Shown: positions 3,398 through 39,454 of the stretch, in pieces
Numbering within the stretch: position 1 is the first letter of the stretch
How the letters are laid out: each line of letters opens with the position of its first letter
Source: an uncultured Flavobacteriaceae bacterium
GTDB taxonomy: Bacteria; Bacteroidota; Bacteroidia; Flavobacteriales; Flavobacteriaceae
DNA length: 46,805 nt
Direction of reading: 5' to 3'
Assembly: GCA_905182835.1 (NCBI GenBank)
Contig: CAJJDI010000005.1
Location: 1-46,805 of the forward strand
Translations under genes and position numbers: made by a program
Notes under the pieces: model-generated
What the model saw: the letters and a program-made list of their open reading frames with translations, nothing else
Databases searched by the model: none
What the model was told of the DNA's origin: nothing

Positions 3398-4711
3398 TTA
3401 CCACTGGTTGATAGATATTGTTGGAGGGGAAACAGAAAAGTTTAATGCTATATTGTAAGTACCTGCACTCACTGGAATATTTGCACCATTTAGTTCCATT
3501 GAACCATCATTGCCGTCATCTCCATAATTTACTCCCCAAGCATCATTTTGTCTAACTTTTATTTCACCATCATTTAACACAGCACCATTAATATAATAAT
3601 AACCTTCATTTATACCAAAGTCAGGTATAAATTTATCATTTGGACCATCCCATCCGTTAGCTGTTGCACTTCCAACTAACCCCCAAACATCCATAGGTTC
3701 CAAAGTATAAGTTAATGTGTTTAAGCTCATAGTTACAAGATAATGACCTGCAGAGACTACAATATTATCGCCTCCGATTTCTAAAGATCCGTCAGCACCT
3801 GAGTCTCCGTAATTTAATGTCCAATCATTATTAAACCTAAATTTAACCTCACCGTCATTAAGACTTACTACTGTTTTAAAATCATCTTGGTATGAATTAT
3901 AATATAATTTCATATCAGGACCATCCCATCCGTTTGTCGTTGCACTACCAACAAGTCCCCATGTGAATTCTTCCATGGACCATGTTAAGTTGTCAAAGTT
4001 AACTGTGATTTTATAATCACCAGCAGTAACAAGAATATTAGCACCATAAGGGTCTAAAGTACCATCATTACCATCATCACCCCAGTTATCAGCCCAGTCA
4101 TTATTGCTTCTAAACTTGATTTCCCCATTTTTCAATGAAACATATGCTACATACTCATTTTCAATATTTGTTTGATAAAAAGGAAGATCAGGGATGTTAG
4201 GGTTTCCCCAGCCTGCAGCAGTTGCTGAACCAACAACCCCAAGGTTAGTTGATAAATCTAATAAAGAAGAGAATGGTGTTACGTTTAGATTAACAGTATT
4301 TGAAAACATCTCTTGGTAGTCACTTAAGGTAACTTGTATTTTAAAACTTACCACAGATTCTTCATTAGGAGCTAAACCTAAAGACAGCATCTTAGCATTA
4401 AGTTCACCTACAGTAAAAGTTTTCTCTAAACTATTACCTACAGGAAGTACCTGAGGTGCGCTAAAATCACCATTGTTTATATCAATTAAAACTTTGTAAG
4501 ATGCAGCAGCGTCAAAGCCATAGTCTGGATCTGTCCAATTTGCAGTAAGAATCTCATTATCTTGACTGTCTTCTTCTAGAATAACACTCTCTAATGAAAG
4601 CATAAGTTCTGTATTTGCATTTGAATTAAGTTCAATATATTCAACTTCGTCACAAGAGAAATTGAATGTTAATAAACCTAATACAAATAAGAGTTTAAAT
4701 ATATTTTTCAT
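3398..4711 (-). CDS. susE: SusE-like outer-membrane starch-binding lipoprotein with three repeated modules
   Basis: A surface glycan-binding lipoprotein predicted to hold alpha-glucan near the SusC/SusD transporter. I start it at the ATG at 4711 (MKNIFKLLF...), 10 bases after the SusD stop. An in-frame ATG at 4735 would add 8 residues that look less like a signal peptide and would overlap susD. A lipobox ends in NFSC. A SusE N-terminal, Ig-like domain follows (about 130 residues). Then come three tandem modules of about 90 residues, located at 3968-4240, 3698-3961 and 3401-3688. Each carries the pattern WGLVGSAT-NGWDGP, then NDGEIKFR, NDW, NYGDDG, G-NI-V-AG-Y. These resemble the starch-binding repeats of Bacteroides SusE/SusF. 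A fourth copy of the module lies inside the upstream SusD. Confidence 0.88.
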   Translation of the reverse strand: MKNIFKLLFVLGLLTFNFSCDEVEYIELNSNANTELMLSLESVILEEDSQDNEILTANWTDPDYGFDAAASYKVLIDINNGDFSAPQVLPVGNSLEKTFTVGELNAKMLSLGLAPNEESVVSFKIQVTLSDYQEMFSNTVNLNVTPFSSLLDLSTNLGVVGSATAAGWGNPNIPDLPFYQTNIENEYVAYVSLKNGEIKFRSNNDWADNWGDDGNDGTLDPYGANILVTAGDYKITVNFDNLTWSMEEFTWGLVGSATTNGWDGPDMKLYYNSYQDDFKTVVSLNDGEVKFRFNNDWTLNYGDSGADGSLEIGGDNIVVSAGHYLVTMSLNTLTYTLEPMDVWGLVGSATANGWDGPNDKFIPDFGINEGYYYINGAVLNDGEIKVRQNDAWGVNYGDDGNDGSMELNGANIPVSAGTYNIALNFSVSPPTISINQW

Positions 4712-4721
4712 TTTAATTGTA

Positions 4722-6602
4722 TTAATAACCTTCATTTTGAGTAAGGTTAGGATTAACTGATATTACATTGCTAGGTAAAGGGAATAAGTTTCTATATGAA
4801 TCTACGCCAATTCCAGAAGGTTCATTGCCTTTGAAAGGCCATAAATAACTGTTTGAAGTAAAGTAATCATATCTAACTAAATCTGTTCTTCTTTGTCCTT
4901 CCCAGTATAATTCTTTAGATCTTTCATCTAATATAAAATCTAAACTTAAATCTGAGGTATTAATATTTCCAGAACTATTCCCAAATCCTCTTTCTCTTAG
5001 TTCATTTATTTTAGTAGCCGCTAAACCTAAATCACCATTACCACCTCTTAAGGTAGCTTCAGCATAATTTAAATAAATCTCAGCTAGTCTGATTAAAGGA
5101 ATATCAGTATCTGTATGGTTTCCAGAACTATCGCTACCAGAATTACCATTTACATCCACATTTTTAAATTTTGATACTGCATAACCATTTTCAAATGGAG
5201 GTATAGTTTCGATTTCTAAATTCTGACCATCGGAATGAAACATTCCTCTTTTATCAGCTGTGTATGCGTTTATTGTATATAAAGAGTTGTCTAAGTCTAG
5301 CTCTATGTAATATGTTCCAGCTGAAATAAGGATATTGTCTCCGCCTGGATCTAATGTTCCGTCCGAGTTGTTATCACCATAATTTTGACCCCAGTCTTCA
5401 TTAAATCTAAACTTCATTTCACCATCGTTTAAATCTGCATATATAGCATACTGGTTTGTTGCCGTTTGATACATTTCCATATCCGGACCATCCCATCCAT
5501 TTTGAGTAGCATTACCTACAAGCCCCCAATCGGATTGTGTACCTAATGAGTTATTTAATGCGTCAACATCTACAGCAAATTTGTTTACTAAATTTTTAGT
5601 AGTTCTCAAGCCTCCCCAGCCACCATTAACACCAAAATCTGTTGGATTCATACTTCCACCTATTGCTGCATGAACTAAGAATGTTGAACCTCCCCAAGTT
5701 TGAGATTGAAGTCCATCAAAGTTTAAGGCAAATATAAATTCATTCTGAGCTCCATTAGATCCGTTATCAGCTAGAAATAATTCATCATATGCTGTTCCGT
5801 TTCCGTTTCCGTCATTCGTGTTTATTGAGTAGGAAGAATTCATTACGTTTTCTGAATACATTACACATTCATTATACCTATTTTGTCCTGTCCACACCTC
5901 AGAATTTAGATACAGTCTTGAGAGTAGGGCATGAGCAGCGATATTATCTACTCTTCCATATTCATTTGATGTAGCTAATAAAGGCTCAATTTCTAATAAT
6001 TCTGTTTCTATAAAATTGAAAAGCTCCGTTTGATTACTTTGAGTTGGAAGCTCTGTAGATATTTCTGTAGTTAGTGGCACATTTCCATACAAATCTAGAA
6101 GGTTATAGTATGCGTATGCTCTCAGAAATCTTGCTTCAGCAATATAAATCTTTACTACATCTTCTTCTAAAGATGTAGCATTTGCTATAAATGAATTACA
6201 AAAGGAAACCTCTTGAGCTAATCTATAATACATAGCTTCTGTAAAATCATTACTACTTGACCAGTATAGCCCGTGTAGATCTGGTAACCCAGGATCACCC
6301 CATCCTACTACTGCATGATCAGTTGTTATTTCATTTAAATTAAATAACATTCTTGAAAATTGTGAAAACCCTTCATCAATATCTGAAATATCAGGACTTC
6401 CAGCAGGACCATTTTGACCTGTTAGAGCTAAACTTGCATACAGTTTTGCTAGAGCTCCTCTTGCTTCATTAGCGTTAGAGAAGACATCTTCTTCAGTAAA
6501 GCTATCTGGGTCCATAGGGGATTGGTCTAAATCACTATGGCATGATAAAATTAGACTAGATATACTGAATACAAAAATTAGTTTATTAAATATATTTTTC
6601 AT
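4722..6602 (-). CDS. susD: SusD-like lipoprotein with an inserted SusE/SusF-type binding module
   Basis: A surface glycan-binding lipoprotein that caps the SusC transporter and passes alpha-glucan oligosaccharides to it. The signal peptide ends in a lipobox with C21 (LILSC). Typical SusD features follow: SFTEEDVFSNANEARGALAKLYASLA, an alpha-helical TPR-like part (EARFLRAYAYYNLLDLYGNVPL), and the C-terminal IPLIRLAEIYLNYAEA and ILDERSKELYWEGQRRTDLVRY segments. At 626 residues it is about 90-100 longer than usual. The excess is residues about 358-447, which are a complete copy of the SusE module (WGLVGNAT-NGWDGPD, NDGEMKFRF, NYGD, GGDNI, AGTYY). The SusD fold resumes right after it at ADKRGMFHSDGQ. 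It starts 12 bases after the SusC stop and sits upstream of SusE in one operon. Confidence 0.93.
   Translation of the reverse strand: MKNIFNKLIFVFSISSLILSCHSDLDQSPMDPDSFTEEDVFSNANEARGALAKLYASLALTGQNGPAGSPDISDIDEGFSQFSRMLFNLNEITTDHAVVGWGDPGLPDLHGLYWSSSNDFTEAMYYRLAQEVSFCNSFIANATSLEEDVVKIYIAEARFLRAYAYYNLLDLYGNVPLTTEISTELPTQSNQTELFNFIETELLEIEPLLATSNEYGRVDNIAAHALLSRLYLNSEVWTGQNRYNECVMYSENVMNSSYSINTNDGNGNGTAYDELFLADNGSNGAQNEFIFALNFDGLQSQTWGGSTFLVHAAIGGSMNPTDFGVNGGWGGLRTTKNLVNKFAVDVDALNNSLGTQSDWGLVGNATQNGWDGPDMEMYQTATNQYAIYADLNDGEMKFRFNEDWGQNYGDNNSDGTLDPGGDNILISAGTYYIELDLDNSLYTINAYTADKRGMFHSDGQNLEIETIPPFENGYAVSKFKNVDVNGNSGSDSSGNHTDTDIPLIRLAEIYLNYAEATLRGGNGDLGLAATKINELRERGFGNSSGNINTSDLSLDFILDERSKELYWEGQRRTDLVRYDYFTSNSYLWPFKGNEPSGIGVDSYRNLFPLPSNVISVNPNLTQNEGY
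5262..5531 (-). other. SusE/SusF-type module embedded in SusD
   Basis: This stretch encodes SusD residues about 358-447. It aligns along its full length with the three modules of the neighbouring SusE-like protein; by eye about half the positions match the second SusE module. It is in frame, with no stop codon and SusD sequence on both sides, so it is a domain insertion and not a broken gene. Binding of alpha-glucan is inferred from the family and has not been shown. Confidence 0.82.
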
Positions 6603-9730: not shown

Positions 9731-10768
9731 ATGAGACAAACTGTTACATTAAAACAAATTGCTAATGAAATTGGTGTATCTATATCTACAGTATCAAAAG
9801 CATTAAGAAACAGCGTTGAAATAGGAGCAGAGACTAAATTGAAAATTCAAGCCTACGCTAAACTATATAATTATAGACCAAATAATATAGCGCTAAGTTT
9901 AAAAAATAGAAAAACAAAGACTATTGGTGTGATTATTCCTGAAATAGTTCATCATTTTTTTTCTAAAGTTATTAAAGGAATTGAGCAAGTGGCAAATAAA
10001 AGAGGTTATAATGTTATTATTGGTTTGTCAAATGAATCTTTTGATAAGGAGGTTATCAATATGCAGCTATTGGCAAATGGGAGTATTGATGGATTTATAT
10101 TGTCAATATCTAAAGAAACTCTTCTAAAGCAAGATTACCATCATTTTACTGAGTCAATTGACCAAGGGATGCCAATCGTAATGTTTGATAGGGTGGTTAA
10201 TGATATTAAGTGTGATAAAGTAGTTGTTGATGACTATGAGGGTTCTAGAAAAGCAGTTGAATTGCTAATTAGTAAAGGTTGCAAAAACATAGCCTTAATA
10301 ACTACTAAAGATTACGTTAGTGTTGGTAGATTAAGAACAAAGGGATATTTAGAGGCGTTAGATCTTAATAAAATTGTCGCAAATTCAGAATTTATTTTAA
10401 AAGTAGATGATAACGATGTTTCAGATGATCATTTAGAATCCCTAGAATCTGATATAGAAAAATTACTGAAACAAAACAAAGTAGATGGAATTTTTGCAGT
10501 AAACGAAATATATGCAATAACTGCTATGAAGGTGGCGAGAAAATTAAAATTAAATATACCTGAAAATATAAAAATTATTGGTTTTACTGATGGTGTTTTA
10601 TCTAAACATGCATCACCCAGTCTTACTACGGTTAGCCAACATGCTAAAAAAATGGGAGAAATTTCGGCCAAGCTAATTATTGATAAACTTGAATCTAATG
10701 AGACTCATGAAAACAATGAATTGATTATTATTCCTACAGAAATAATTGAAAGAGAATCAACTCTTTAA
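9731..10768 (+). CDS. LacI-family transcriptional regulator of the alpha-glucan locus
   Basis: A 345-residue DNA-binding regulator. The N-terminal LacI helix-turn-helix is at about residues 4-25 (TLKQIANEIGVSISTVSKAL), followed by a hinge (YNYRPNNIALSLKNRKT) and a periplasmic-binding-protein-like sugar-sensing domain from about 62 to the end (TIGVIIPEI, FDRVV, DDYEGSRKAVELL, GFTDG, LTTVSQHAKKMG). It is divergent from susC and leads into the permease-phosphorylase genes. Marine flavobacterial alpha-glucan loci often carry a LacI-type regulator in place of the Bacteroides SusR. It probably senses maltose or a related sugar and acts at the palindromes on either side. The effector and the sign of control are not visible. 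Confidence 0.92.
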   Translation: MRQTVTLKQIANEIGVSISTVSKALRNSVEIGAETKLKIQAYAKLYNYRPNNIALSLKNRKTKTIGVIIPEIVHHFFSKVIKGIEQVANKRGYNVIIGLSNESFDKEVINMQLLANGSIDGFILSISKETLLKQDYHHFTESIDQGMPIVMFDRVVNDIKCDKVVVDDYEGSRKAVELLISKGCKNIALITTKDYVSVGRLRTKGYLEALDLNKIVANSEFILKVDDNDVSDDHLESLESDIEKLLKQNKVDGIFAVNEIYAITAMKVARKLKLNIPENIKIIGFTDGVLSKHASPSLTTVSQHAKKMGEISAKLIIDKLESNETHENNELIIIPTEIIERESTL

Positions 10769-10900: not shown

Positions 10901-12265
10901 ATGAATAAACAAAAATTATCTTTTTGGCAAATTTGGAACATGAGTTTTGGTTTCCTTGGAATCCAGTTTGGTTTTGCTCTACAAGGTGGATTCATGTCAA
11001 GAATTTTCCAAACATTAGGTGCATCATCTGATGAAATTCCAATGCTTTGGATTGCTGCTCCATTAACAGGACTTATTGTTCAGCCTATAATAGGTTATTT
11101 AAGTGATAATACTTGGCATCATAGATTCGGAAGAAGAAGGCCTTATTTTCTGATTGGGGCTATATTAAGCTCCATTACACTGTTTTTTATACCATATTCA
11201 TCTACACTTTGGATTGCAGCTGGACTATTATGGATTTTAGACGCTTCAATTAATATATCAATGGAGCCATTTAGAGCATTAGTAGCAGATAAATTAGATG
11301 ATACTCAGAGATCATACGGCTTTATGGTTCAAACATTAGTAATAGGTATAGGTACTTGGATTGCCAGTAATTTACCATGGTTTATTTCATATATAGGTTT
11401 TAGCGATTCTGCACCAATAGGAGTTGTGCCAATGTCTGTAAAAATTGCATTTGCAATAGGAGCGTTAGTTTTTTTATCTAGTATTATTTATACAGTTTTC
11501 ACTACAACAGAGTACCCTCCCAGTAATATTGAGGAATTTAAAAACAAATCAAAGAATTCAAATTTTTCAAAAGAAATAATAAGTAATATTATTTCTATGC
11601 CTAAAACAATGAAAAAGCTAGGAATAATACAATTCTTTTCATGGTTTGCTTTTTTTACAATGTGGAGTATGTCTAATCCCGCACTAACGGAGCACGTGTA
11701 TAATTCTCCTATGCCAATTCAATCTGATTTTAATTTAAACACTAATGATTTAGAAGATCTTTCAAGTTATGATTATGCAAACACAAAATTTCAAATGGCC
11801 TCAAACTCTGTAGGTTCTGCGATGGGTATGTATGGCCTGTCTTCTATGTTGTTTGCATTAGTTTTAACCTTTTATACTTCAAAAAAGAAGATAAATAGAA
11901 AACACATACATATGTTCTCTTTACTTATTGGAGGATTGGGTTTTATAATGATGTATTTCATTAAGGGTCAACCTGAATTATTAAAATATTGTTTTGTTTT
12001 AATAGGAATTTCATGGGGGAGCATACTTTCAATGCCGTACGCAATGCTTTCAAGCTCGGTAGATCCGGAAAAAATGGGTATTACAATGGGTATTTTTAAC
12101 ATGTTTATCGTTATCCCACAAATTATTGCAGCTATTGGAGGTATTAACTTTGTTTCAAATATTATTGGAGATGAACCTATTAACTCGATGATTATAGCAG
12201 GTCTAAGTTTAATAATAGCTGGCTTTGCAAACTTGTTAATTACTAATGAAAAAGCAATTAGTTAG
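10901..12265 (+). CDS. MFS sugar transporter, SLC45-like (probable maltose permease)
   Basis: A 454-residue inner-membrane major facilitator with about 12 hydrophobic segments. The N-terminal part (FWQIWNMSFGFLGIQFGFALQ), the cytoplasmic loop RFGRRRPYFLIGA and the segment DASINISMEPFRALVAD are typical of the SLC45-like glycoside/pentoside transporters found in Bacteroidota maltose loci. A long hydrophilic loop occurs at about residues 270-310. The following genes (beta-phosphoglucomutase and GH65 phosphorylase) make maltose the likely cargo, brought from periplasm to cytoplasm. Its TAG stop is directly followed by the ATG of the next gene with no spacer, so the two are probably co-translated. 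Confidence 0.9.
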   Translation: MNKQKLSFWQIWNMSFGFLGIQFGFALQGGFMSRIFQTLGASSDEIPMLWIAAPLTGLIVQPIIGYLSDNTWHHRFGRRRPYFLIGAILSSITLFFIPYSSTLWIAAGLLWILDASINISMEPFRALVADKLDDTQRSYGFMVQTLVIGIGTWIASNLPWFISYIGFSDSAPIGVVPMSVKIAFAIGALVFLSSIIYTVFTTTEYPPSNIEEFKNKSKNSNFSKEIISNIISMPKTMKKLGIIQFFSWFAFFTMWSMSNPALTEHVYNSPMPIQSDFNLNTNDLEDLSSYDYANTKFQMASNSVGSAMGMYGLSSMLFALVLTFYTSKKKINRKHIHMFSLLIGGLGFIMMYFIKGQPELLKYCFVLIGISWGSILSMPYAMLSSSVDPEKMGITMGIFNMFIVIPQIIAAIGGINFVSNIIGDEPINSMIIAGLSLIIAGFANLLITNEKAIS

Positions 12266-12913
12266 ATGAATAAAAAACTATTTATTTTTGATCTAGACGG
12301 AGTTATCGTTGATACAGCAAAGTATCATTTTTTAGCTTGGCAAAATATTGCAAGTGAACTTAATATAGATTTTACAATTGAGCAAAATGAATTACTGAAA
12401 GGAGTTAATAGAGAAAACTCATTGTTAAAGATATTAGAATTTGAAAACAAATCTATTGATCCATCACTTTTTAATTCTTTATTAATAAAGAAAAATAATA
12501 TTTACTTACGTTATGTTGAAAAAATTAATTCAAGCGATGTTATTGACGGAATTAAAAACTCAATTGATTACATAAAGAAACATAAGCATCACCTAGCATT
12601 GGGTTCTGCAAGTAAAAATGCCCAAATGATTTTAAGAAAGTTAGAACTTTTTGAATGTTTTGATATTATTATAGACGGGACTATTACTGAAAAAGCTAAA
12701 CCTAATCCAGAAGTGTTTCTCAGGTCAATGAATCGTTTAAAAGTTAAGTCAGAAGACTGTATTGTATTTGAAGACTCTATTTCAGGAATCACTGCTGCTA
12801 ATACAGCTGGAATGATTAGTATTGGTATTGGTAATAAAGATGTTTTAAGTAATGCAAACCATAATTTTTCAAAATTCAATTTAATAACTAATCAATTTTT
12901 AAGTCATTTGTAA
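12266..12913 (+). CDS. pgmB: Beta-phosphoglucomutase
   Basis: A 215-residue cytoplasmic HAD-superfamily enzyme that turns beta-D-glucose-1-phosphate into glucose-6-phosphate. The phosphoryl-accepting motif FDLDGVIVDT has D9 and D11. Other HAD landmarks are GSASKNAQMIL (motif II), KPNPEVFL (motif III lysine) and FEDSISGITAA (motif IV acids, DSxxGxxAA as in PgmB). Length is normal for the family. It lies between the maltose permease and the GH65 phosphorylase, whose product is its substrate, which makes this call much firmer than for an isolated HAD protein. Three bases separate it from the next gene. Confidence 0.93.
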   Translation: MNKKLFIFDLDGVIVDTAKYHFLAWQNIASELNIDFTIEQNELLKGVNRENSLLKILEFENKSIDPSLFNSLLIKKNNIYLRYVEKINSSDVIDGIKNSIDYIKKHKHHLALGSASKNAQMILRKLELFECFDIIIDGTITEKAKPNPEVFLRSMNRLKVKSEDCIVFEDSISGITAANTAGMISIGIGNKDVLSNANHNFSKFNLITNQFLSHL

Positions 12914-12916
12914 AAT

Positions 12917-15223
12917 ATGAATCAAAAATATCTCATTTCTAATAGTTGGTCAATTATTGAAGAGGGTTATGATAAATCCAAAATAAAATCTTCTGAAAGT
13001 ATTTTTAGTATTGGAAATGGTGCGATGGGACAAAGAGCCAACTTTGAAGAGACTTTTACGGGTGACTCTTTACAGGGTAGTTATATAGGTGGTGTTTATT
13101 ATAACGACAAAACTAAAGTTGGTTGGTGGAAAAATGGTTATCCAAAATATTTTGCTAAAGTCTTAAACTCTCCTAATTGGATTGGCATTAATGTTAACGT
13201 TAATGGTGAAAACATTAATCTTAATAATTGCTTAAAAATTGATTCTTTTAAGCGTGAATTAAATATGAAAGAAGGGTGGCTTTCAAGAGAATTTATAATC
13301 CATTTATATAATGGGGAAATCCTTAAAATAAACACAAAAAGATTTTTAAGCTTACAGCATGATGAAATTGGAGCTATACAATACAATGTGACCCCATTAA
13401 GTAATAATATTAAATTAGAATTAACACCTCTTATTGATGCCAATGTCTCAAACTCTGATTCTAATTGGAATGATCAGTTTTGGGATCATTATTTATCTTC
13501 TTCAAACGATGAAAATTCTGCTTTTGTTTTATCAAAAACATTAAATACAAATTTTCACGTATGCACTTATATGAGTACTAATGTTTATATAAATAATGAT
13601 CTGTTTAAATGTATTCCATCGATAAACTCTAATAACAATTTGATTGAGTTTAAGTATGATATAGAATTGAATAAAGACACCACTTTGACTTTGATTAAAT
13701 TTGGGGGATATGTTTCTAGCTTAAATCATGATAAAACAGAGTTAATTAATCGTGCAAAAGACAATATAAAAACAGCATCTGATATAGGTTTTGAAACACT
13801 GTTAGCTATTCAAAAGGAATCCTGGAGTTCTATATGGAATACTTCAGATATTGTAATTAAAGGGGATGTTAACGCTCAACAAGGAATAAGATTTAATATT
13901 TTTCAACTTAATCAAACTTACTTAGGTAAGAACCCAAAACTAAATATTGGACCTAAAGGTTTTACTGGTGAGAAATATGGTGGTAGTACTTATTGGGATA
14001 CTGAAGCATATTGCTTACCATTTTATATGGCTACAAAAGGAAATAAGGTAGCTCTAAATCTTTTAAACTATAGACATAATCAACTTGATAAAGCAATAGA
14101 GAATGCACTGAATTTAGGCTTAGGTAATGGTTCCGCACTTTACCCCATGGTAACAATGAACGGCGAAGAGTGTCATAATGAATGGGAAATTACATTTGAA
14201 GAAATTCATAGAAATGGAGCTATTGTATTTGCAATATATAACTACCATAGATATACTGGTGATTATGACTATATTTTAGAAAAAGGAATCGATGTGTTAA
14301 TTAGTATTGCTAGGTTTTGGGGGCAAAGATCTAATTTCTCAACCTCAAAGAACAAATACGTGATTTTGGGTGTTACAGGCCCTAATGAATATGAGAATAA
14401 TGTAAATAATAACTGGTACACTAACTATATCGCTAAGTGGTGTATTGACTATTTCATATCAAATTTAGACCATATAAAACTAAACCATAAATCATCTTAT
14501 GATAAGATTATTAATAAATTCTCTATAAATGATATTGAAATTCTGAAATTAAAGATTATAGCGGAGAATATGTATTTTCCTTATGATAAGAATTTAGATA
14601 TTTTCCTACAACAAGATCAGTTTTTAGACAAAGATTTGTTTGGAGTTGATTCTATCCCTAAGAATGAAAGGCCTATTAACCAACATTGGTCATGGGATAA
14701 AATCTTAAGGTCTCCATACATTAAACAGGCTGATGTAATGCAGGGTTTTTATTTCTTTGAAGATCATTTTTCTCAAGAACAATTAGAAAAACATTTTGAT
14801 TTCTACGAACCTTTTACTGTTCATGAATCCTCTTTATCATCTTGTATTCATAGTATTCAAGCTTCTAAATTAAATAGAGTTGATAAAGCATATGAGTTTT
14901 ATCTTCAAACTTCTAGATTAGATTTAGATGACTACAATAATGAGGTTGAAGAAGGTTTACATATAACGTCTATGGCTGGCACTTGGTCAAGTATTGTAGA
15001 AGGTTTTGGAGGCATGAGAGTATTAAATGATAAGCTTTCATTCAATACTAAGATTCCAAAGCAATGGGACATGTATTCATTTAAAATTATCTTTAGAAAT
15101 AATATTATATCTGTAAAAGTTACTAGAAATTTAACTGAAATTGAGTTAACTGGTGATAAGCCTCTTGAAATTCTTTTAAATAATAAACTAGTTATTGTGG
15201 AACCCATTAAAATTGACATATGA
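12917..15223 (+). CDS. GH65 maltose phosphorylase
   Basis: A 768-residue cytoplasmic enzyme that splits maltose with phosphate into glucose and beta-glucose-1-phosphate. The N-terminal beta-sandwich begins with SIGNGAMGQRANFEE. The (alpha/alpha)6 barrel holds YWDTEAYCLPFY and the family block MNGEECHNEWEITFEEIHRNGA at about residues 414-435, which includes the proposed general-acid glutamate. TGPNEYENNVNNNWYTN and KQADVMQGFYFFEDHF are further GH65 landmarks. There is no signal peptide, in keeping with a cytoplasmic place. Kojibiose or trehalose phosphorylases are in the same family, but the linkage to GH13 enzymes and PgmB favours maltose. The TGA stop overlaps the next ATG (ATGA). Confidence 0.92.
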   Translation: MNQKYLISNSWSIIEEGYDKSKIKSSESIFSIGNGAMGQRANFEETFTGDSLQGSYIGGVYYNDKTKVGWWKNGYPKYFAKVLNSPNWIGINVNVNGENINLNNCLKIDSFKRELNMKEGWLSREFIIHLYNGEILKINTKRFLSLQHDEIGAIQYNVTPLSNNIKLELTPLIDANVSNSDSNWNDQFWDHYLSSSNDENSAFVLSKTLNTNFHVCTYMSTNVYINNDLFKCIPSINSNNNLIEFKYDIELNKDTTLTLIKFGGYVSSLNHDKTELINRAKDNIKTASDIGFETLLAIQKESWSSIWNTSDIVIKGDVNAQQGIRFNIFQLNQTYLGKNPKLNIGPKGFTGEKYGGSTYWDTEAYCLPFYMATKGNKVALNLLNYRHNQLDKAIENALNLGLGNGSALYPMVTMNGEECHNEWEITFEEIHRNGAIVFAIYNYHRYTGDYDYILEKGIDVLISIARFWGQRSNFSTSKNKYVILGVTGPNEYENNVNNNWYTNYIAKWCIDYFISNLDHIKLNHKSSYDKIINKFSINDIEILKLKIIAENMYFPYDKNLDIFLQQDQFLDKDLFGVDSIPKNERPINQHWSWDKILRSPYIKQADVMQGFYFFEDHFSQEQLEKHFDFYEPFTVHESSLSSCIHSIQASKLNRVDKAYEFYLQTSRLDLDDYNNEVEEGLHITSMAGTWSSIVEGFGGMRVLNDKLSFNTKIPKQWDMYSFKIIFRNNIISVKVTRNLTEIELTGDKPLEILLNNKLVIVEPIKIDI

Positions 15224-17088
15224 AAAATATAGTTAGATGTTTAATATTTTTTTTATTTAGCATATCATTAAATGCTCAAATTGAAAGGGTAGAGCCCCCG
15301 AATTGGTGGATAGGGTTCGAGAATATTGAATTACAACTATTAATAAAAGGTAATAATATACGTTATTCTAAAGTTTATATTGATTATAAAGGAGTTAATA
15401 TTGTAAACACTCATTATGCTGATTCTCCAAATTATATTTTTTTAGACCTTGAAATTAATTCTTCTACTGCACCTGGAAATTTCAATATAACTTTAATCAC
15501 AAAAGAGAATAAAACACATAAATATTTATATTCTTTGGTAGGTAGAAGTAAAACTAATAAACAAAATAAAGGTTTTGATTCTTCTGATGTAATATACCTT
15601 ATCACACCTGATAGGTTTGCAAATGGAGACTCTACTAATGATGAATTTAATAACCTTAGAGAGAAATCTTATGATAGGGCAAATGACTATGCAAGACATG
15701 GTGGTGATATTAGAGGAATTATCAACAACCTAGATTATATTCAAAAAATGGGCTTCACTTCAATTTGGTCAACTCCATTATTGATTAACGATATGGAAGA
15801 AAGTTCATATCACGGATATGCAATTACCGACTATTATAAAGTTGATCCTAGATTTGGTTCATTAGATGAATACATTGAGTTGTCTGAAGAAGCAAAGAAA
15901 AGAGGTATAAAGCTGTTGATGGATCAAGTAGCTAATCATTGTGGTGTTTTTCATTGGTGGATGGATGATCTGCCTTTTAATAATTGGATAAATTATCAAG
16001 ATGATTTCGTAAATGGAGTTCCAACAACTTATTCAAACCACAGAAGAACAACTCATCAAGATGCTTATAGTGCCGAAATTGATGCACTTCAAATGGTTAA
16101 TGGCTGGTTTGTAGACACTATGCCTGACTTAAACCAGACAAATGATTTTATGTCTAATTATATAATTCAAAATAGTATTTGGTGGATAGAAACAATCGGT
16201 TTATCAGGTATCAGGCAAGATACTTACCCTTACCCTGATAAAGAATTTATGAGTCTATGGGCTAACAGTATTATGGTAGAATATCCAAATTTTAATATAG
16301 TTGGTGAAGAATGGAGCTTAAACCCTTTGTTGGTTAGTTATTGGCAAAAAGATTCTAAAATTTCAGGAGATTATAAATCTAATTTACCATCTTCAATGGA
16401 TTTTCCAATGCAAAATGCCATTTATGAAGGAATTAATGATAATGAGAATTGGAATACTGGATTAATAAAAATTTATGAAGGTTTAGCAAATGATTTTATT
16501 TACCCAGATCCTCAATCCTTACTTCTTTTTTCTGACAATCATGATATGAGTAGAATTTACACTCAATTTGATGAAGATATTGTAAAAACAAAAATGGCAT
16601 TAAGTTTAATTTTAACTATGCCTAGAATACCACAAATTTATTATGGAACTGAAGTTTTATTGAGTGACAAATCTAAGCCAGGAGATCACGGTTTAATTAG
16701 AACTGATTTCCCTGGTGGATGGGATAATGATACCTCTAATGGATTTGATAATCAAGGATTGTCAGAAACTCAATTAGAGATGAAAAACTTTTTAATGAAA
16801 TTATTAAACTTTAGAAAGAAATCAAATGCTATCCATAAGGGAAAAACAATTCATTTTGCTCCAATAAATGGAGTTTATTTAATAGCTAGAACATATGAGG
16901 ATGAAGTATTGATTAATATTATTAATAAGAATGAAGATCCTGTAAAATTAGATTTACAAAGGTTTGATGAATTAAGTCTTAATGGTTCGTATTTTTTAAA
17001 TGTATTAACAAATGAACTTATACTTTGGGAAAATGAAATCAAACTAAACAAAAAAGGATCTTATATACTTAATTTACAAAAACCATGA
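15220..17088 (+). CDS. SusA-like GH13 neopullulanase/cyclomaltodextrinase, periplasmic
   Basis: A 622-residue GH13 enzyme with a Sec signal peptide (residues 1-19, SLNAQ) and no lipobox, so probably periplasmic. It would cut imported maltooligosaccharides to maltose and glucose. Residues about 22-110 are a cyclomaltodextrinase-type N-terminal domain (VEPPNWWIGFENIELQLLI). In the barrel: YLITPDRFANGD, HGGDIRGI, MDQVANHCG, nucleophile D334 (GIRQDTYPYPD), acid/base E363 (NIVGEEW) and D442 (FSDNHDMSR). The arrangement and length match Bacteroides SusA. It overlaps the phosphorylase gene by 4 bases and the esterase gene by 4 bases, showing one tightly packed operon. Confidence 0.92.
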   Translation: MKNIVRCLIFFLFSISLNAQIERVEPPNWWIGFENIELQLLIKGNNIRYSKVYIDYKGVNIVNTHYADSPNYIFLDLEINSSTAPGNFNITLITKENKTHKYLYSLVGRSKTNKQNKGFDSSDVIYLITPDRFANGDSTNDEFNNLREKSYDRANDYARHGGDIRGIINNLDYIQKMGFTSIWSTPLLINDMEESSYHGYAITDYYKVDPRFGSLDEYIELSEEAKKRGIKLLMDQVANHCGVFHWWMDDLPFNNWINYQDDFVNGVPTTYSNHRRTTHQDAYSAEIDALQMVNGWFVDTMPDLNQTNDFMSNYIIQNSIWWIETIGLSGIRQDTYPYPDKEFMSLWANSIMVEYPNFNIVGEEWSLNPLLVSYWQKDSKISGDYKSNLPSSMDFPMQNAIYEGINDNENWNTGLIKIYEGLANDFIYPDPQSLLLFSDNHDMSRIYTQFDEDIVKTKMALSLILTMPRIPQIYYGTEVLLSDKSKPGDHGLIRTDFPGGWDNDTSNGFDNQGLSETQLEMKNFLMKLLNFRKKSNAIHKGKTIHFAPINGVYLIARTYEDEVLINIINKNEDPVKLDLQRFDELSLNGSYFLNVLTNELILWENEIKLNKKGSYILNLQKP

Positions 17089-18014
17089 AATTAAAATTAT
17101 ATATATATATTATTTTTTTATCATTATTTTTTTGTAATAAAAGTCCAATTAATAAAAATAAATTAAAATTATTAGAGGATATAAACCTGTTTTCAGGAGA
17201 CTTATTCAGAGTAGAAAATTTTAAATCAATTTTTGTATCTGAAAGGAATGTAGATATATGGATTCCTGATAGTTACAATACAAAAAAATCCTATTCAGTT
17301 TTTTATATGCATGATGGACAGAGTTTGTTTGACCCATCTAAAACCTGGAATAATCAAGAGTGGAAAGTTGATGAATGGTCAACGAAATTAATGAATACGG
17401 CTGCTGTTAAAGATTTTATAGTAATTGGTATACACAATGGTGCTGAAAGTAGATGGTATGACTATTTTCCTCAAAAATCATTAGAGTTTATGCCTAATAT
17501 AAACCTCTCTAATATAATTAAAGATGAGTCAAAGTTAAACTCTGATAATTATTTGAAATTCATTGTAAAAGAATTAAAGCCTTTTATTGATGATAATTTT
17601 TCAACCAGTAAAAATGCAAAAAACACTTTAATAGGTGGATCTAGTATGGGAGGATTAATATCTATGTATGCAGTGTTTGAATATCCCGAAATATTTGGCT
17701 CTGCAGCTTGTTTATCTACACATTGGTTAGGGCATCTTGATATAGCTAATAGAGATGTTTTTTCTAAAGCAATTTTTGATTATATGTCATTTAATATTCC
17801 TGTTAATAATACCAATAAGTTCTATTTCGACTATGGCACGGAGACTTTAGATAGTTATTATTTAGAATATGCACCTATAGTAGATAGTATTTTTTATAGT
17901 AACGGATACAATGAGCTTAATTTTGTTAATCTTAAGTTTGAAAATGAGAATCATTCAGAGAACTCATGGAGTAAGAGGCTTAATGTACCAATTGAGTTTC
18001 TTTTAAAAAAATAG
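17085..18014 (+). CDS. Alpha/beta-hydrolase esterase (esterase-D type), probable lipoprotein
   Basis: A 309-residue putative esterase of the PF00756 type (esterase D / enterochelin esterase-like). A short hydrophobic N-terminus ends in LSLFFC, which fits a lipoprotein signal. The conserved FYMHDGQSLFDP segment and the nucleophile elbow GGSSMGG (S187) are seen. Likely Asp and His partners lie near FDYGTETLD and NHSENSW. It sits between two GH13 genes with a 4-base overlap upstream and a 4-base gap downstream, so it is made together with the amylases. Its substrate is unknown. It may remove acyl groups from glucan, or it may have another sugar-ester target. Confidence 0.82.
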   Translation: MKLKLYIYIIFLSLFFCNKSPINKNKLKLLEDINLFSGDLFRVENFKSIFVSERNVDIWIPDSYNTKKSYSVFYMHDGQSLFDPSKTWNNQEWKVDEWSTKLMNTAAVKDFIVIGIHNGAESRWYDYFPQKSLEFMPNINLSNIIKDESKLNSDNYLKFIVKELKPFIDDNFSTSKNAKNTLIGGSSMGGLISMYAVFEYPEIFGSAACLSTHWLGHLDIANRDVFSKAIFDYMSFNIPVNNTNKFYFDYGTETLDSYYLEYAPIVDSIFYSNGYNELNFVNLKFENENHSENSWSKRLNVPIEFLLKK

Positions 18015-18018
18015 CTTT

Positions 18019-20274
18019 ATGAATAAATACTTACTTGTTTTTGTAATTGTTTTCACATCTTGTGATAAGGACATAAATGTGAAAAACGATCATATTTCAT
18101 TATCATCACCATTTTATTTAGAGGATGAATCAAATGATTTAGTAACCTCGGATTATATTATTAATACTCAAAATATTGATTCAGTATCAGGCTCTACTGG
18201 GCTCATTTTAAATTTGTCTACAAATAAAAGTTTGTTAAACATTCGTATTACTAAGCCCATTTCGCATTTATATAATATTAAAATTTGGACAGATGGAATA
18301 AGTACAGATATCCCTATTTTTAATAGTGAAAAATCAAATAAACAAATTGAATTATTAGATGTTGACAAGAAATATCAAAGTGTTTTATTAAAAGGCGAAT
18401 TTACAAATTGGCAACTAAAACGATTGAATTATAAAAAAGATAAATGGATTTATAATGCATTAGTTGAAAAGGGAGAACATCAGTATATCTTTTCAATTGA
18501 TGGAGTAGAGCGTTTAGATCTAAATAATTCAAGTCAAATAAGTAATGGTAGTGGGGGTTTTAATTCTGTTTTAAAAGTTGAAAGTTTTGAATCCGAGCTT
18601 CCGTTAGTTTATAGTGATGGCTTATTTGAAAATTCATTTAATGTAAGCTCAATAAATCAATTTACTAAAGCTCTTGTATATTTAGATAATAAGATTATTA
18701 AAGTTTATAATAATCAATTAGGCTCTAATACTGTAAAAATAATTCTTCCAAAAAATATTAAAAAAGGAAGGTCTTTAATCCGAGTTTATGTTGCTAATAA
18801 ATATGGCAGAGGAAATGACTTACTAATTCCATTACATGATGGCGAGATCATCACAAATACTAACAATCTACAAAGAACTGATTTTCATAATCAAATAATG
18901 TACTTTTTAATGGTTGATAGATTTTTAGATGGTGACATTTCTAATACTAAAAAACTCAGTAATGATAGCGTAAACTATAAGGCAGATTATTTTGGTGGTG
19001 ATCTACAAGGAGTTATAAATAAAATCAACAATAATTATTTTACTAATTTAGGTATAAATACAATTTGGCTATCTCCAATTACACAGAACCCAGAAGGCGC
19101 TTATGGTTTATGGAAAAATCCTTTAACTAAATTTTCTGCTTACCATGGCTACTGGCCTATATCCAACACTAAAATCGATTATAGGTTTGGAGATGACAGG
19201 ACGTTTAAAAAACTAATTACTAAAGCTCATGATAAAAATATAAATGTAATCTTGGATTATGTAGCTAATCATGTGCATATTGAACATCCATTATACAAAT
19301 CAAATCCAGACTGGGCAACAAGTCTTTATTTGCCAGATGGATCAATGAATACTGAAAAGTGGGATGATCACCGTTTAACAACTTGGTTTGATACATTTCT
19401 TCCAACATTAGATTTTAGTAAAAGAGAAGTGGTTGAGAAAATGACTGATTCGGCATCTTATTGGCTTACAAATTTTGATTTAGATGGATTTAGGCATGAT
19501 GCAACAAAACATATACAGTTAGATTTTTGGAGAACTCTAACTAAAAAGATTAAAAATAAGGTAGATAGACCTATTTTTCAGATTGGTGAAACTTACGGAA
19601 GTCCTGACTTAATTAAAAGTTATGTTAATTCAGGTATGTTAAATGGACAATTTGATTTTAATTTATATGATAGTTCTGTGCAAGCTTTTGCTAATCCTAA
19701 TTCAAGTTTCGTTGATTTATCAAACTCTCTTAAAAAAAGCCTTTATTACTATGGTTATAATCATTTAATGGGAAATATTACAGGCAATCAAGATCGTGCT
19801 AGATTTATTAGTTATGCATCAGGTGATTTGTCTTTTTCTGAAGACACTAAAAAAGCCGGATGGAGTAGAGAGATACTAATGAGTGATACAAATTCTTACA
19901 AAAAATTAGAAATGTTACATGCTTTTAATTTATTTATACCTGGTATTCCTAGTATTTATTATGGAGATGAATATGGAAGTATTGGTGGTAATGACCCAGA
20001 CAATAGAAAATTAATGAAATTTGAAGGTTTAGACTCAAATGAATTAAAATTAAAAGAAAAAGTAACTGAATTAATTAATGTTAGAAAATCTAATATGTCT
20101 ATCCTATACGGCACAACATCAGTTGAGTATGTTGAAAAGGATATTTTAGTTTTAAAGAGAAAATATTTTAACCAAACATCTTTGGCAATATTTAATAAAT
20201 CGGCTAAAGATTTTAGCTACAAGGACAACCTTATTACTGCTTATGATTTTAAAATTGTTATTTATGAAAATTAA
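18019..20274 (+). CDS. GH13 alpha-amylase-family lipoprotein with N-terminal E-set/CBM48-like module
   Basis: A 751-residue lipoprotein (lipobox VFTSC, C15) predicted on the outer membrane, in the role of SusG. After an unnamed N-terminal region, residues about 115-190 resemble a CBM48/AMPK-type module (LLKGEFTNW, GEHQYIFSIDG), followed by another beta domain to about 280. The GH13 barrel starts near 293: YFLMVDRFLDGD, FGGDLQGV, LDYVANHVH, nucleophile D494 (DGFRHDATK), acid/base E524 (QIGETYG) and a third acid D592. Region IV reads GNQDRARF, so the usual His before this Asp is Gln. IPSIYYGDEYG is conserved near the end. It is the last gene of the plus-strand operon. Confidence 0.9.
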   Translation: MNKYLLVFVIVFTSCDKDINVKNDHISLSSPFYLEDESNDLVTSDYIINTQNIDSVSGSTGLILNLSTNKSLLNIRITKPISHLYNIKIWTDGISTDIPIFNSEKSNKQIELLDVDKKYQSVLLKGEFTNWQLKRLNYKKDKWIYNALVEKGEHQYIFSIDGVERLDLNNSSQISNGSGGFNSVLKVESFESELPLVYSDGLFENSFNVSSINQFTKALVYLDNKIIKVYNNQLGSNTVKIILPKNIKKGRSLIRVYVANKYGRGNDLLIPLHDGEIITNTNNLQRTDFHNQIMYFLMVDRFLDGDISNTKKLSNDSVNYKADYFGGDLQGVINKINNNYFTNLGINTIWLSPITQNPEGAYGLWKNPLTKFSAYHGYWPISNTKIDYRFGDDRTFKKLITKAHDKNINVILDYVANHVHIEHPLYKSNPDWATSLYLPDGSMNTEKWDDHRLTTWFDTFLPTLDFSKREVVEKMTDSASYWLTNFDLDGFRHDATKHIQLDFWRTLTKKIKNKVDRPIFQIGETYGSPDLIKSYVNSGMLNGQFDFNLYDSSVQAFANPNSSFVDLSNSLKKSLYYYGYNHLMGNITGNQDRARFISYASGDLSFSEDTKKAGWSREILMSDTNSYKKLEMLHAFNLFIPGIPSIYYGDEYGSIGGNDPDNRKLMKFEGLDSNELKLKEKVTELINVRKSNMSILYGTTSVEYVEKDILVLKRKYFNQTSLAIFNKSAKDFSYKDNLITAYDFKIVIYEN

Positions 20275-27842: not shown

Positions 27843-30800
27843 ATGAAAATTATTTTCCGTACAATTATTCTTTCATTGCTAACTCCTTTAATTGCTTTTT
27901 CGCAATCTAAGATAATAACTGGAACTATTAATGATGAATTAGGTTTGCCACTTCCGGGAGTTACTATTCAGGTCAAAGACTCAAACAATCTTGGTGCTAT
28001 CACAAATTTTGATGGTATTTTTACAATCTCTATTCCTTCAGATGCAACACAAACTTTAATGCTTTCATATGTTGGTTACGCTACGGAAGAAATTGATGTT
28101 TCTATACAATCAACATTTTCAATAAACCTTCAAATTGATTCTGATCAACTTGATGAAGTTGTTGTTATAGGTTATGGTACAGTTCTTAAGAAAGATATTA
28201 CTGGTTCTTTATCCTCAGTTATTGTTACAGATGAAGTTGCTACTCAATCTAATTCTGTTGATCAGCTTTTACAAGGACGTGCTGCAGGTGTACAAGTCAT
28301 TCAAAACAGTGCCGCACCAGGTTCTGGTGTTAGTGTAAAGATTAGAGGAACGAGTAGTTTAAGAGGTAATAATGAACCACTCTATGTTATCGATGGAATT
28401 ATTATTTCTTCTGCAGGTGAAGATGTTCTTCCAACTGGTGGAGGTAATACTGGACAACAGACTCAAAACGGTTTAAATGGTATTAATCCTCGTGATATAG
28501 AAAGTATTCAGGTTCTAAAAGATGCATCCGCAACTGCTATTTACGGTTCAAGAGGAGCTAATGGAGTCGTTTTAATTACTACTAAAAAAGGAATTAGTGG
28601 TAAACCAAAAATAACTGCTTTTCTTACCAATTCAGTAAGATCAGAAACTAATAAAATAAATATGTTAGATGCATTTGGATATGCAAACTATGTTAATGAA
28701 ATAGATGAAATGACTGGTTTTTTACCAAGATATTCTTTTTCTGGTGATAGTATTTTTATTGGACGAGAAGGACAAGGCCCCGTAAGACCTACTGATCAAT
28801 ACAACTGGCAAGATGAAATTTATGGAGATGGTTTTAGTCAGAAATTTGGAGCTTCCGCATCTGGGGGTGGAGAAAATGGAAATTATTATATATCTGCAGG
28901 TTTTGATAATCAGCGAGGTGTTGTTAGAACCTCTACATTTAAAAGTAGTGATATTAGAATTAATTTAAACCAAGATCTTAATGACAATCTTAAATTAAAA
29001 GCACGAATAAGTGGTTTTATGAATAGCGGAAACTTCGCTGAAGGTGGAGATTTAATTGGAGGTTCTAATACAAGTTTTGTAAGAAATGTTATTGCATACA
29101 GACCAGTTATCGACCATGATTTAGAAGATGTTACTTCAGAGGGCGACTATACTACGAACCCATTTGCTTGGCAAAAAGACTTTTCAGATATTTCTAAGGA
29201 AATACGTTTTATAGGTTCTCTAGGTCTTACCTATAAGCTTCCAGTTAAGGGCTTATCCTACCAAATTAAATATGGTGGTAATATTAGAACAAAGGACAGA
29301 AGGCGTTTTTATGGACTTAGTACTTTTCAAGGTTTAAACTCCAATGGAACATTACAAATAAGTACTATAAATGCTAAAACACATCAGTTTAATAATATAG
29401 TAAGATTTAATAGAAAGTTTAATAGAAGACATAGAGTTAACGCTATGATTGGTTTAACTTACGATGTAAGAAATGTAGAAAATAGTATTTATGCAGTTGA
29501 AGATTTTCTTACAATGCAATTTACAACAGATCAACCAGCTTTTGGAAACGTAGTAACTAGACCTTTAACATTTATAAAAGCTGATCAACAGATATTTTCC
29601 ATTTTAGGACGTGTTAATTACACTTTTGATAACAAGTATATTTTAACAGCTACAATTAGACGTGACGGAGTTTCAAAGTTTGCAGAAAACAATAGATACG
29701 GTGTATTTCCATCCTTAGCTTTTGCTTGGAATGCTGGAAATGAGCGTTTTATTCAAAATTTAGATATTTTTGAAAGTTTAAAATTTAGAGCTGGATGGGG
29801 ACAGATAGGTAATCATGGGATAGGTCCTTATGGCAGCTTATCTAATTATGGAGTAAGTAATTTATATGGAAATGCAGATGGAGGAACTAATGTTCCAATA
29901 GCACTACAGAGCTTAGCAAATCCCAATTTAACATGGGAAACAACTGAACAAACAAACTTTGGTGTGGACTTTACTACATTAAATGGTGTTATTTCTGGAA
30001 ATATTGATGTTTACGATAAAATGACGAAGGATTTATTACAAAATTCTGAGATTCCTCCATCATCTGGATTTACACGTATTTTAGTAAATAAAGGATCCAT
30101 CACTAATAAAGGAGTTGAACTTGCACTGAATTTTACTCCTATTTCTAGAGATGATTTTGAACTTAGTTTTGGTGGAAATATTTCATTTAATAAGACCCAA
30201 ATTGTTAACCTAGAATCACAGTCTTTACTTGGCTTTTATGAAAATGGAGTTTTAACTGATAGAAGATTCTATTTTGGAAATCAAATTAGTAGAGGAACTT
30301 ATTTTAGATATCCTGCGAACGTTTTTGTTGAAGGGGAAGAAGCAAGTCTTTTTTATGGTTTTGAGACAGATGGAATGTATCAAACAGATGACACTGATTT
30401 TGTAGATGGTGCAGTACCTGGGGATGTAAGAAGAGTAGATCAATTAACTGAAGATACAGATGGGGATGGTATATTAGATTCTGGAGATGGAGTAATTGAT
30501 GAAAGAGATAGAACCTTTATTGGAAATCCAAACCCTGATTTTGTATACGGGTTCGACTTTAATTTAAAGTATAAAAGATGGAATTTAAATGCTTTGTTTA
30601 ATGGGGTATATGGCAATGATATTGCTAATGGAATGTTGTTACAACTAGACAATGCAGAAGCTAGGGTATTTGCTAATATAAAGCCTGAGGCTTATTATAA
30701 TGCTTGGAGACCAGATAGTCCATCTAATACTCATCCTAGAATTGGTTATACAACACAAGGGCAAATAGCTATTACAGATCGAATAATTGAAGATGGAAGT

Positions 30801-31034
30801 TATTTAAGGTTAAATAATTTGACTATTGGATATGATATTGCCGTAAGTAAAAACAATTTTATTAATAACTTAAATGTTTATATAGCTGGTCAAAATTTAT
30901 TTACGTGGACTAATTACAGTGGATATGACCCAGAAGTATCATCATTTTTACACTCAGGATTGATCAATGGAGTTGATTGGAATGGCGGGATTAATGCAAA
31001 AAATATTTTGATGGGTGTCAATATTACATTTTAA
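27843..31034 (+). CDS. susC: SusC-like TonB-dependent transporter (sulfated-polysaccharide locus)
   Basis: A 1,063-residue outer-membrane importer. Residues 1-20 are a signal peptide ending IAFSQ. Residues about 24-98 are the carboxypeptidase-regulatory-like domain (GTINDELGLPLPGVTIQVKD, SYVGYATEEI). A TonB-box-like stretch LDEVVVIGYGTVLKKDITGS follows, then the plug (LLQGRAAGVQVIQ, KIRGTSSLRGNNEPLYVIDG, VLKDASATAIYGSRGANGVVLITTKKG) and the barrel. An acidic, Ca-site-like loop (DTDGDGILDSGDGVIDERDR) occurs near 880-900, and the last strand ends in MGVNITF. It is the first gene of the second polysaccharide locus and pairs with the SusD 44 bases downstream. Confidence 0.96.
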   Translation: MKIIFRTIILSLLTPLIAFSQSKIITGTINDELGLPLPGVTIQVKDSNNLGAITNFDGIFTISIPSDATQTLMLSYVGYATEEIDVSIQSTFSINLQIDSDQLDEVVVIGYGTVLKKDITGSLSSVIVTDEVATQSNSVDQLLQGRAAGVQVIQNSAAPGSGVSVKIRGTSSLRGNNEPLYVIDGIIISSAGEDVLPTGGGNTGQQTQNGLNGINPRDIESIQVLKDASATAIYGSRGANGVVLITTKKGISGKPKITAFLTNSVRSETNKINMLDAFGYANYVNEIDEMTGFLPRYSFSGDSIFIGREGQGPVRPTDQYNWQDEIYGDGFSQKFGASASGGGENGNYYISAGFDNQRGVVRTSTFKSSDIRINLNQDLNDNLKLKARISGFMNSGNFAEGGDLIGGSNTSFVRNVIAYRPVIDHDLEDVTSEGDYTTNPFAWQKDFSDISKEIRFIGSLGLTYKLPVKGLSYQIKYGGNIRTKDRRRFYGLSTFQGLNSNGTLQISTINAKTHQFNNIVRFNRKFNRRHRVNAMIGLTYDVRNVENSIYAVEDFLTMQFTTDQPAFGNVVTRPLTFIKADQQIFSILGRVNYTFDNKYILTATIRRDGVSKFAENNRYGVFPSLAFAWNAGNERFIQNLDIFESLKFRAGWGQIGNHGIGPYGSLSNYGVSNLYGNADGGTNVPIALQSLANPNLTWETTEQTNFGVDFTTLNGVISGNIDVYDKMTKDLLQNSEIPPSSGFTRILVNKGSITNKGVELALNFTPISRDDFELSFGGNISFNKTQIVNLESQSLLGFYENGVLTDRRFYFGNQISRGTYFRYPANVFVEGEEASLFYGFETDGMYQTDDTDFVDGAVPGDVRRVDQLTEDTDGDGILDSGDGVIDERDRTFIGNPNPDFVYGFDFNLKYKRWNLNALFNGVYGNDIANGMLLQLDNAEARVFANIKPEAYYNAWRPDSPSNTHPRIGYTTQGQIAITDRIIEDGSYLRLNNLTIGYDIAVSKNNFINNLNVYIAGQNLFTWTNYSGYDPEVSSFLHSGLINGVDWNGGINAKNILMGVNITF

Positions 31035-31078
31035 TCAGAAATTTAAAAAACAAGTACAAGTATTAAAAATTATAAATT

Positions 31079-32599: not shown

Positions 32600-32666
32600 G
32601 GATAGTTGAGAATTGAGTGAAGAAATAAAACTTTGTTAGTGTAATATTAGTATTTAATCAAGTATT

Positions 32667-32777
32667 ATGAATATAGGAGTAGGTCAAGGTAGATCAAGAA
32701 AAAAATACAAATCGTCAATGATTGTATTGTTAATTAGCATAATAGGAATAGTTGTGGCATTAATTTTGAATATCTAA
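32667..32777 (+). CDS. 36-residue single-span membrane peptide
   Basis: An ATG-started short frame. The translation is MNIGVGQGRSRKKYKSSMIV followed by LLISIIGIVVALILNI. It has a Gly/Arg/Lys-rich N-terminus and one hydrophobic segment of about 18-19 residues that runs almost to the C-terminus, as in small inner-membrane proteins with the basic end inside. It lies in the 220-base space between susD and the first sulfatase and on the same strand. I know of no function. Its organised amphipathic plan makes it more likely to be real than a chance frame of this size. Confidence 0.5.
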   Translation: MNIGVGQGRSRKKYKSSMIVLLISIIGIVVALILNI

Positions 32778-32819
32778 ATAAACATATATTAACAATCTTT
32801 ATTTTACATAAATTTTCAT

Positions 32820-34328: not shown

Positions 34329-34556
34329 ATTAGAAATTTAAAAATGAAAATAATTACTCAATTAAGAGGCTTTTTAGTCTACTCGCCAAGAATTGAAACC
34401 ACATCAAAACAAGTTGTAAACTAGCTTTTTAGATGTATATTTTTTATAGTAGTAATTACTAAGTGATTTAAATTATCCTCAATAATTATATGAAATTCCT
34501 CAAATATTTTAAATTTCTAATCTATTTAAATCTATGTTTGTTTTATATTTAGGTTC
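34329..34556. other. Intergenic region between sulfatase and GH10
   Basis: 228 bases with no convincing gene. A 26-codon frame (34344-34424) starts with ATG but has no support. There is no clear terminator, so readthrough into the GH10 gene is possible. Confidence 0.35.
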
Positions 34557-35609: not shown

Positions 35610-35614
35610 ACAGA

Positions 35615-37957: not shown

Positions 37958-37964
37958 AAGTATT

Positions 37965-39350: not shown

Positions 39351-39430
39351 AATAAAACATATTTATAAAATTTATTTTTTATTATCCATTCACCTATAAA
39401 AAAAATGAAATTATGTTTGCTGAAAATCAC

Positions 39431-39454
39431 ATCAATAACTAAATCAATAACTAA
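39431..39454. repeat. 12-bp perfect tandem repeat, two copies
   Basis: ATCAATAACTAA occurs twice in direct succession (39431-39442, 39443-39454) in the leader just before the small secreted protein gene. It may be a slippage duplication. No function is evident. Confidence 0.8.

Follow-up and report, generated by a model that had tools for sequence, protein, structure and literature searches.

A SusE/SusF-type module inserted in the SusD of a marine Flavobacteriaceae alpha-glucan locus

SusD forms the lid that closes SusC. Assembly of the starch system is considered looser than that of the utilisomes studied. The modules of the SusE and SusF proteins of Bacteroides thetaiotaomicron are strung on separate lipoproteins, whereas at the locus described here one such module lies inside SusD and a SusE-like protein is encoded in addition. 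In the utilisomes treated in PMC7618045, a mobile SGBP domain grapples the glycan and passes it on to enzyme and transporter; whether SGBPs are fixed parts of SusCD or gather around it only in the presence of substrate is presented there as an open question for starch. One insertion of a binding module into another protein of the system has been described, namely that of CBM58 in domain B of the amylase SusG (PMC11267923). For marine alpha-glucan PULs, looped and open SusDs have been distinguished, a loop of around 17 residues being found near the site in some (Beidler 2024, PMC11093988).

The locus and the module within its SusD

The window, meaning the whole stretch of DNA analysed here, comprises 46,805 nt of contig CAJJDI010000005.1 (GCA_905182835.1; forward strand, 1-46,805) from an uncultured marine Flavobacteriaceae bacterium. 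It opens with minus-strand genes for alpha-glucan utilisation, while a regulator, a transporter, GH65 and further GH13 genes lie on the plus strand (Table 1). The SusE-like gene and the end of susD overlap by 14 bp. The window also holds a second SusCD locus (27843-46488), which includes five or more sulfatase-like genes together with GH10, GH3 and a T9SS-sorted GH5 and has the appearance of a PUL for sulfated xylan or something similar. The other SusD encoded in the window (31079-32599, 506 aa) lacks such an insert and provides an internal control.

Table 1. Coordinates of features in the window and of two related SusDs from elsewhere in Bacteroidota
Feature	Coordinates	Strand	Evidence
SusC/RagA TonB-dependent transporter, 970 aa	6614..9526	-	TIGR04056 (740 bits), TIGR04057; directly upstream of susD
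SusD-family lipoprotein (predicted) with insert, 626 aa	4722..6602	-	PF07980/PF14322; NF033071; Foldseek
SusE/SusF-type (X25-like) module, SusD residues 356-446	5265..5537	-	PF16411, BLASTP, AF2, SusF 4fe9
SusE-like lipoprotein, 445 aa	3398..4735	-	PF14292 plus three PF16411 stretches
SusE-like module 1	3974..4240	-	BLASTP 40% to SusD insert; alignment
SusE-like module 2	3692..3967	-	BLASTP 50%, E 7e-28; local module closest to SusD insert
SusE-like module 3	3401..3682	-	BLASTP 45%, E 2e-19
GH13 alpha-amylase-type enzyme with T9SS sorting domain, 952 aa	439..3297	-	PF00128, PF18962
Regulator, presumably LacI-type, divergent from susC	9731..10768	+	translation
MFS sugar transporter, beta-phosphoglucomutase-like, GH65, two GH13, esterase (remainder of alpha-glucan locus)	10901..20274	+	Pfam (GH65, GH13, esterase); translation (transporter, phosphatase)
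Two-module SusD, f5, locus L184	4075-6255	- (reverse-strand coordinates)	SusE/F-type modules
Two-module SusD, f5, locus L185	4780-6966	- (reverse-strand coordinates)	SusE/F-type modules

The host protein is a SusD by profile, by fold and by its place beside susC. Pfam assigns SusD_RagB (PF07980) to residues 287-626, a stretch that spans the insert, and SusD-like_3 to residues 115-232; PF07980 (127.5 bits) and the SusD-like N-terminal profile (42.4 bits) both score above their curated cut-offs. NF033071, an equivalog-like exception model for the B. thetaiotaomicron starch SusD, matches in two stretches with E 3e-133 and 445 bits, which does not reach its cut-off of 725 bits. Foldseek places 3jys and 3ck9 at the top for the SusD model, 3jys with E 3.6e-29, probability 1.00 and TMt 0.77, a match of high rmsd to a model with parts below pLDDT 50. 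Outside the insert the model has a mean pLDDT of 71, a weakness due to insert-bearing close relatives being the only ones usable. The protein is predicted to be a lipoprotein with a signal cysteine, having an SPII-like start (...LILSC-H) and, at position 21, a cysteine invariant in 53 homologues.

An earlier, sequence-only reading of this DNA had proposed that positions 5262-5531 encode a module of the SusE/SusF type within SusD. On the minus strand these coordinates do correspond to residues 358-447 of the protein, and the likeness to the neighbouring SusE-like protein is evident in BLASTP matches to all three of its modules that lie far beyond chance (Table 1; E 6e-23 for module 1). The SusF_SusE profile (PF16411), suggested as a check, matches residues 361-433 with E 6.1e-7, scoring 30.3 bits for the whole SusD and 33.7 bits for the insert alone against a curated cut-off of 27.5; the X25 profile also matches, weakly. 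The insert is not an entire SusE, since Pfam finds no PF14292 in it, it lies within SusD and the actual SusE-like protein has a gene of its own. As the same reading had it, SusD sequence continues on both sides: 3jys aligns with residues 41-344 and 448-626, 3ck7 with 23-346 and 460-626, and insert-free Flavobacteriaceae homologues with about 1-345 and 449-626. The 90-100 extra residues that it gave for the protein hold good as well, because Flavobacteriaceae SusDs measure 522-543 aa without the insert and 605-647 aa with it.

The fold is that expected of the family. In AlphaFold2 models, residues 356-446 form an all-beta unit with pLDDT 91-95 within the whole SusD, and the module predicted alone, from an alignment of 74 inserts and SusE modules, has eight strands with pLDDT 97.8. 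Superposition on solved SusE and SusF domains, likewise proposed beforehand, was carried out with VIA-align and yielded Z 11.4 over 90 residues for SusF (4fe9), with Z 9.3 (over 85 residues) and 9.0 for SusE (4fem and 4fch, respectively). Sca5 X25-2 (Z 10.5) and pullulanase X25 (Z 8.4) also superimpose, amylases and AmyP-SBD scoring lower; all clear matches are to starch or alpha-glucan proteins, and unrelated proteins appear from about Z 4. Foldseek matches of the module alone are modest (best E 0.016-0.018, from Sca5 X25-2 and SusF, the latter at 0.018). A sequence profile search of solved structures does not reach 4fe9 and finds as nearest protein the dextran SGBP BT3088 (E 1.8e-9). W370, K397 and the glycines do not vary over the 74 inserts and SusE modules, in which R399, W404, N407 and D410 are more than 90% conserved; the conservation of W370, K397 and W404 may be taken as a hint, suggestive only, of alpha-glucan binding.

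The residues that we take, from the 2008 SusD structures, to form the ligand site of the B. thetaiotaomicron protein (W98, Y296 and W320) correspond by alignment to 3ck7 to W101, W303 and W329. Neither W101 nor W329 varies among 53 insert-bearing SusDs, so that the binding site of SusD itself looks intact. The insert begins some 20-27 residues past W329, the equivalent of W320, behind a short helix, and is thus near that site in sequence. With the site residues kept, it would constitute an added second binding surface rather than a replacement, and one placed on the lid, given that SusD is the lid of SusC.

Spread, selection and history of the insert

Matches to SusD with E 1e-40 or better are present in 136 of 299 sampled genomes of the window's family, and in 29 of the 136, window included, full-length matches run across the insert, each confirmed by alignment. 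Named genome contigs contribute at least 80 insert-bearing loci, nearly all matching the entire 181-residue query across the insert, from Olleya, Lutibacter, Lacinutrix, Winogradskyella, Meridianimaribacter, Oceanihabitans, Flaviramulus, Psychroflexus, Aureibaculum and Lutimonas as well as marine SAGs and MAGs. Two contigs assigned to other families, from a Saprospiraceae MAG (L091) and a Crocinitomicaceae MAG (L084), group within Flavobacteriaceae clades and may be misbinned or transferred. The survey of homologues called for by the sequence-only reading therefore finds the insertion recurring, although insert-free SusDs are frequent among near relatives. That assembly or annotation has fused susD with a fragment of susE has a negligible probability, the same in-frame junction being seen in at least 80 named contigs, isolates among them, and in 29 sampled genomes from many different assemblies; an assembly join is ruled out because these genomes are independent.

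The insert is clearly under purifying selection, about as strong as that on the remainder of the protein. Its dN/dS ranges from 0 to 0.12 with a median of 0.04 (15 usable close pairs), compared to 0.01-0.18 for the SusD core (17 pairs); the values, tabulated without the pair L092/L093, are rough since several dS are near saturation.

Its distribution is patchy. In a tree of 125 SusDs, built like all our SusD trees with the insert cut out, the insert label has to change 10 times, eight of these changes being forced by well-supported branches. A single clade of insert-bearing Flavobacteriaceae SusDs is rejected by the AU test (p 7.8e-5; 54-row tree, outside rows included), as is one that also takes in the lineages f24 and f5 considered below (p 1.4e-6), a rejection that fits alike many losses, several gains or transfer of susD genes. 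Four insert-free SusDs nested among insert-bearing ones (L112, L114, L115 and L117) have a junction of only 35-36 residues, compared to the 47-49 residues, with a loop such as SITASDGDGYPIAW, of the mainly insert-free clade. The shortness of these junctions fits secondary loss, as if the module had been cleanly deleted in the four.

Trees of the modules themselves bear on the origin of the insert. In a poorly resolved tree of 92 columns, 20 of 26 Flavobacteriaceae inserts cluster together and are separated from SusE modules 1-3 (support 81/86), while the remaining six lie near module 1 types; a larger tree of 350 modules needs five changes for inserts, only one of them forced. The insert of the window shares 70-73% identity with inserts of other genera, compared to 50-52% with the modules of its own SusE. 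A recent copy of, or gene conversion from, the local SusE is rejected on account of this separate clustering and the closer identity to other genera. The module trees suggest instead that the Flavobacteriaceae inserts may trace to a single old capture or a small number of them, with losses and perhaps transfer thereafter. The insert is an old module kept in many Flavobacteriaceae and gained or lost several times. Of the earlier proposal, the presence of a SusE/SusF-type module within SusD has strong support from profile, sequence and fold and from the comparison to SusDs that lack the insert, whereas the parts that would make it specific to this genome and a recent copy of the neighbouring SusE do not stand.

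The same SusD site is filled in other lineages in a phylum-wide sample of 395 genomes. In f24, a family of another class, it carries a single module whose subtype is another one (PEIYVPGGYQ...DWSP; PF16411 E 2e-9 to 1e-8) and which clusters with the SusE modules of f24 type and not with the Flavobacteriaceae inserts (100/99). In one f24 SusD (L186, residues 344-486) the insert is longer, at about 140 residues, and includes a PF16411 match and an additional tail. The f5 SusDs, 727-729 aa long, hold two tandem modules of two subtypes, the second matched by PF16411 borderline in L184 and above the cut-off in L185. In L184, susC is followed by the two-module susD and then by GH53; GH13 and a gene for a multi-module protein lie on the opposite strand, and susD has no SusE gene beside it. 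Separate captures in Flavobacteriaceae, f24 and f5 would be the simplest reading of the 92-column module tree, and we hold it with moderate confidence. In two Flavobacterium loci (L183 and L187, g128) a 613-aa SusD bears at this site an unrelated insert of about 75 aa that matches no Pfam family.

Such turnover raises the question of whether the loop is simply permissive, with various domains landing and leaving to little effect. Repeated gain or loss, the abundance of insert-free relatives and the unrelated Flavobacterium insert would all be expected of a tolerated passenger. Strong purifying selection on the insert would not, nor would its conservation in at least 29 sampled genomes over deep divergence, and the domains captured in three lineages are all of the SusE/F family rather than random, so that we consider a passenger distinctly improbable.

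A possible role at the transporter mouth

The reading that we prefer, with a probability of roughly 0.6, is that the insert is an independently folding alpha-glucan-binding module built into the SusD lid and acting there as a surface glycan-binding module. Glucan binding by the module is likely from its fold and family, and the locus, with SusC, SusE, GH13 and GH65, supports such a role, though a shared fold is in itself no proof of function; the binding of alpha-glucan, the geometry over SusC and the effect on uptake are inferred. The module would keep chains of starch or glycogen close to the mouth of SusC, and from there they would be handed to the SusD/SusC site and to the surface GH13. 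Fixed to the lid, it would equip every transporter with a grappling domain of its own, at a ratio of 1:1, and would raise avidity and local concentration independently of any docked separate SusE. Many relatives with the same PUL are without the insert, which is therefore not required for alpha-glucan uptake.

The insert does not in general replace the modules of SusE. At 76 scorable insert-bearing loci the next gene encodes three recognisable modules in 53 cases, two in 11 and none in 12, while 25 of 39 insert-free loci have two (raw counts, kinship ignored). The loss of SusE is therefore not explained by the insert: there is no general trade-off, three-module SusEs being kept at most insert-bearing loci and insert-free loci having mostly two, and the insert in SusD occurs with or without a matching SusE. 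Where the next gene is without a SusE/F module, that in SusD is the sole one recognised in the SusD-SGBP gene pair; those of the 12 module-less genes that were examined keep the PF14292 N-domain, their repeats being of other kinds or none being recognised. An SGBP in L049 (9022-10221), with similar genes in L059, L066, L081 and L091, has the SusE N-domain followed by two repeats of about 100 aa (CEFDQLWGVGAGLPSAGWGW...) that match no Pfam family, and stands beside an insert-bearing SusD. SusC length shows no difference with insert presence (medians 969 and 974 aa).

These pairings also bear on the possibility that the module mainly contacts protein (SusE, the second SusD of SusC2D2 or the surface GH13) and so organises the complex, glycan binding being minor. 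B. thetaiotaomicron SusE is reported to aid uptake independently of starch binding (Foley 2018, as cited in PMC6794258), and in the utilisomes of PMC7618045 both SGBP and GH dock on SusC. Yet residues of sugar-site type (W370, K397, W404 and N407) are among the most conserved of the module and are common to SusE modules. Its persistence beside SGBPs with other repeats, and where no SusE gene is adjacent, makes a fixed docking partner unlikely, and scaffolding as the main role is in our judgement unlikely too.

Returning to glucan binding in the lid, a broader proposal, to which we give even odds, is that in Bacteroidota modules of the SusE/F glucan-binding type have landed time and again in the SusD lid, with at least three separate captures at one site (Flavobacteriaceae, f24 and the two-module f5 form) and later losses, and that such a lid would catch starch and could stand in for a separate SusE.

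Relation to known systems

The lid may itself be capable of catching starch. A SusE-type module fused to the lid many times in a 1:1 ratio, with close relatives that are without it, provides matched natural pairs, and hence a way of studying the part that an SGBP module plays at the mouth of the transporter. Prediction of SusD substrates and length-based annotation of marine alpha-glucan PULs would miss this second, predicted, binding domain.

The SusDs of B. thetaiotaomicron (3ck7-3ckc) and B. vulgatus (3jys) belong to the same family, occupy the same place beside SusC, can be aligned on both sides of the insert and conserve the ligand-site tryptophans. Nevertheless, 3jys has 10 residues at the corresponding junction and no SusE/F-type module, and in B. 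thetaiotaomicron SusD about 56 unaligned residues without a match to the module separate the two aligned pieces. B. thetaiotaomicron SusE and SusF (4fem, 4fch and 4fe9) share the module fold (Z 9-11.4) and PF16411. The X25 modules of Bacillus pullulanase (2wan) and Sca5 (7rpy) have the same fold, with Z 8.4 and 10.5, respectively, but belong to enzymes or amylosome proteins of other phyla. Among proteins of solved structure, the closest to the module by sequence is SGBPdex (BT3088) of the dextran utilisome (9sje and 9sji; E 1.8e-9), which differs in being a separate SGBP in a system for dextran, not starch.

The marine PULs of PMC11093988 are loci of the same kind (SusCD, SusE-like, several GH13 and GH65) in the same bacterial group, and the account given there of looped and open SusDs makes no mention of an inserted SusE/F module. 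A search of open-licence papers likewise found no description of such a module inside SusD. Domain and host protein are both of known kinds, and the nearest precedent for their arrangement is CBM58 in SusG, likewise a starch-binding module inserted within another Sus protein (PMC11267923), although there the host is an enzyme, not the transporter lid, and the CBM family is a different one.
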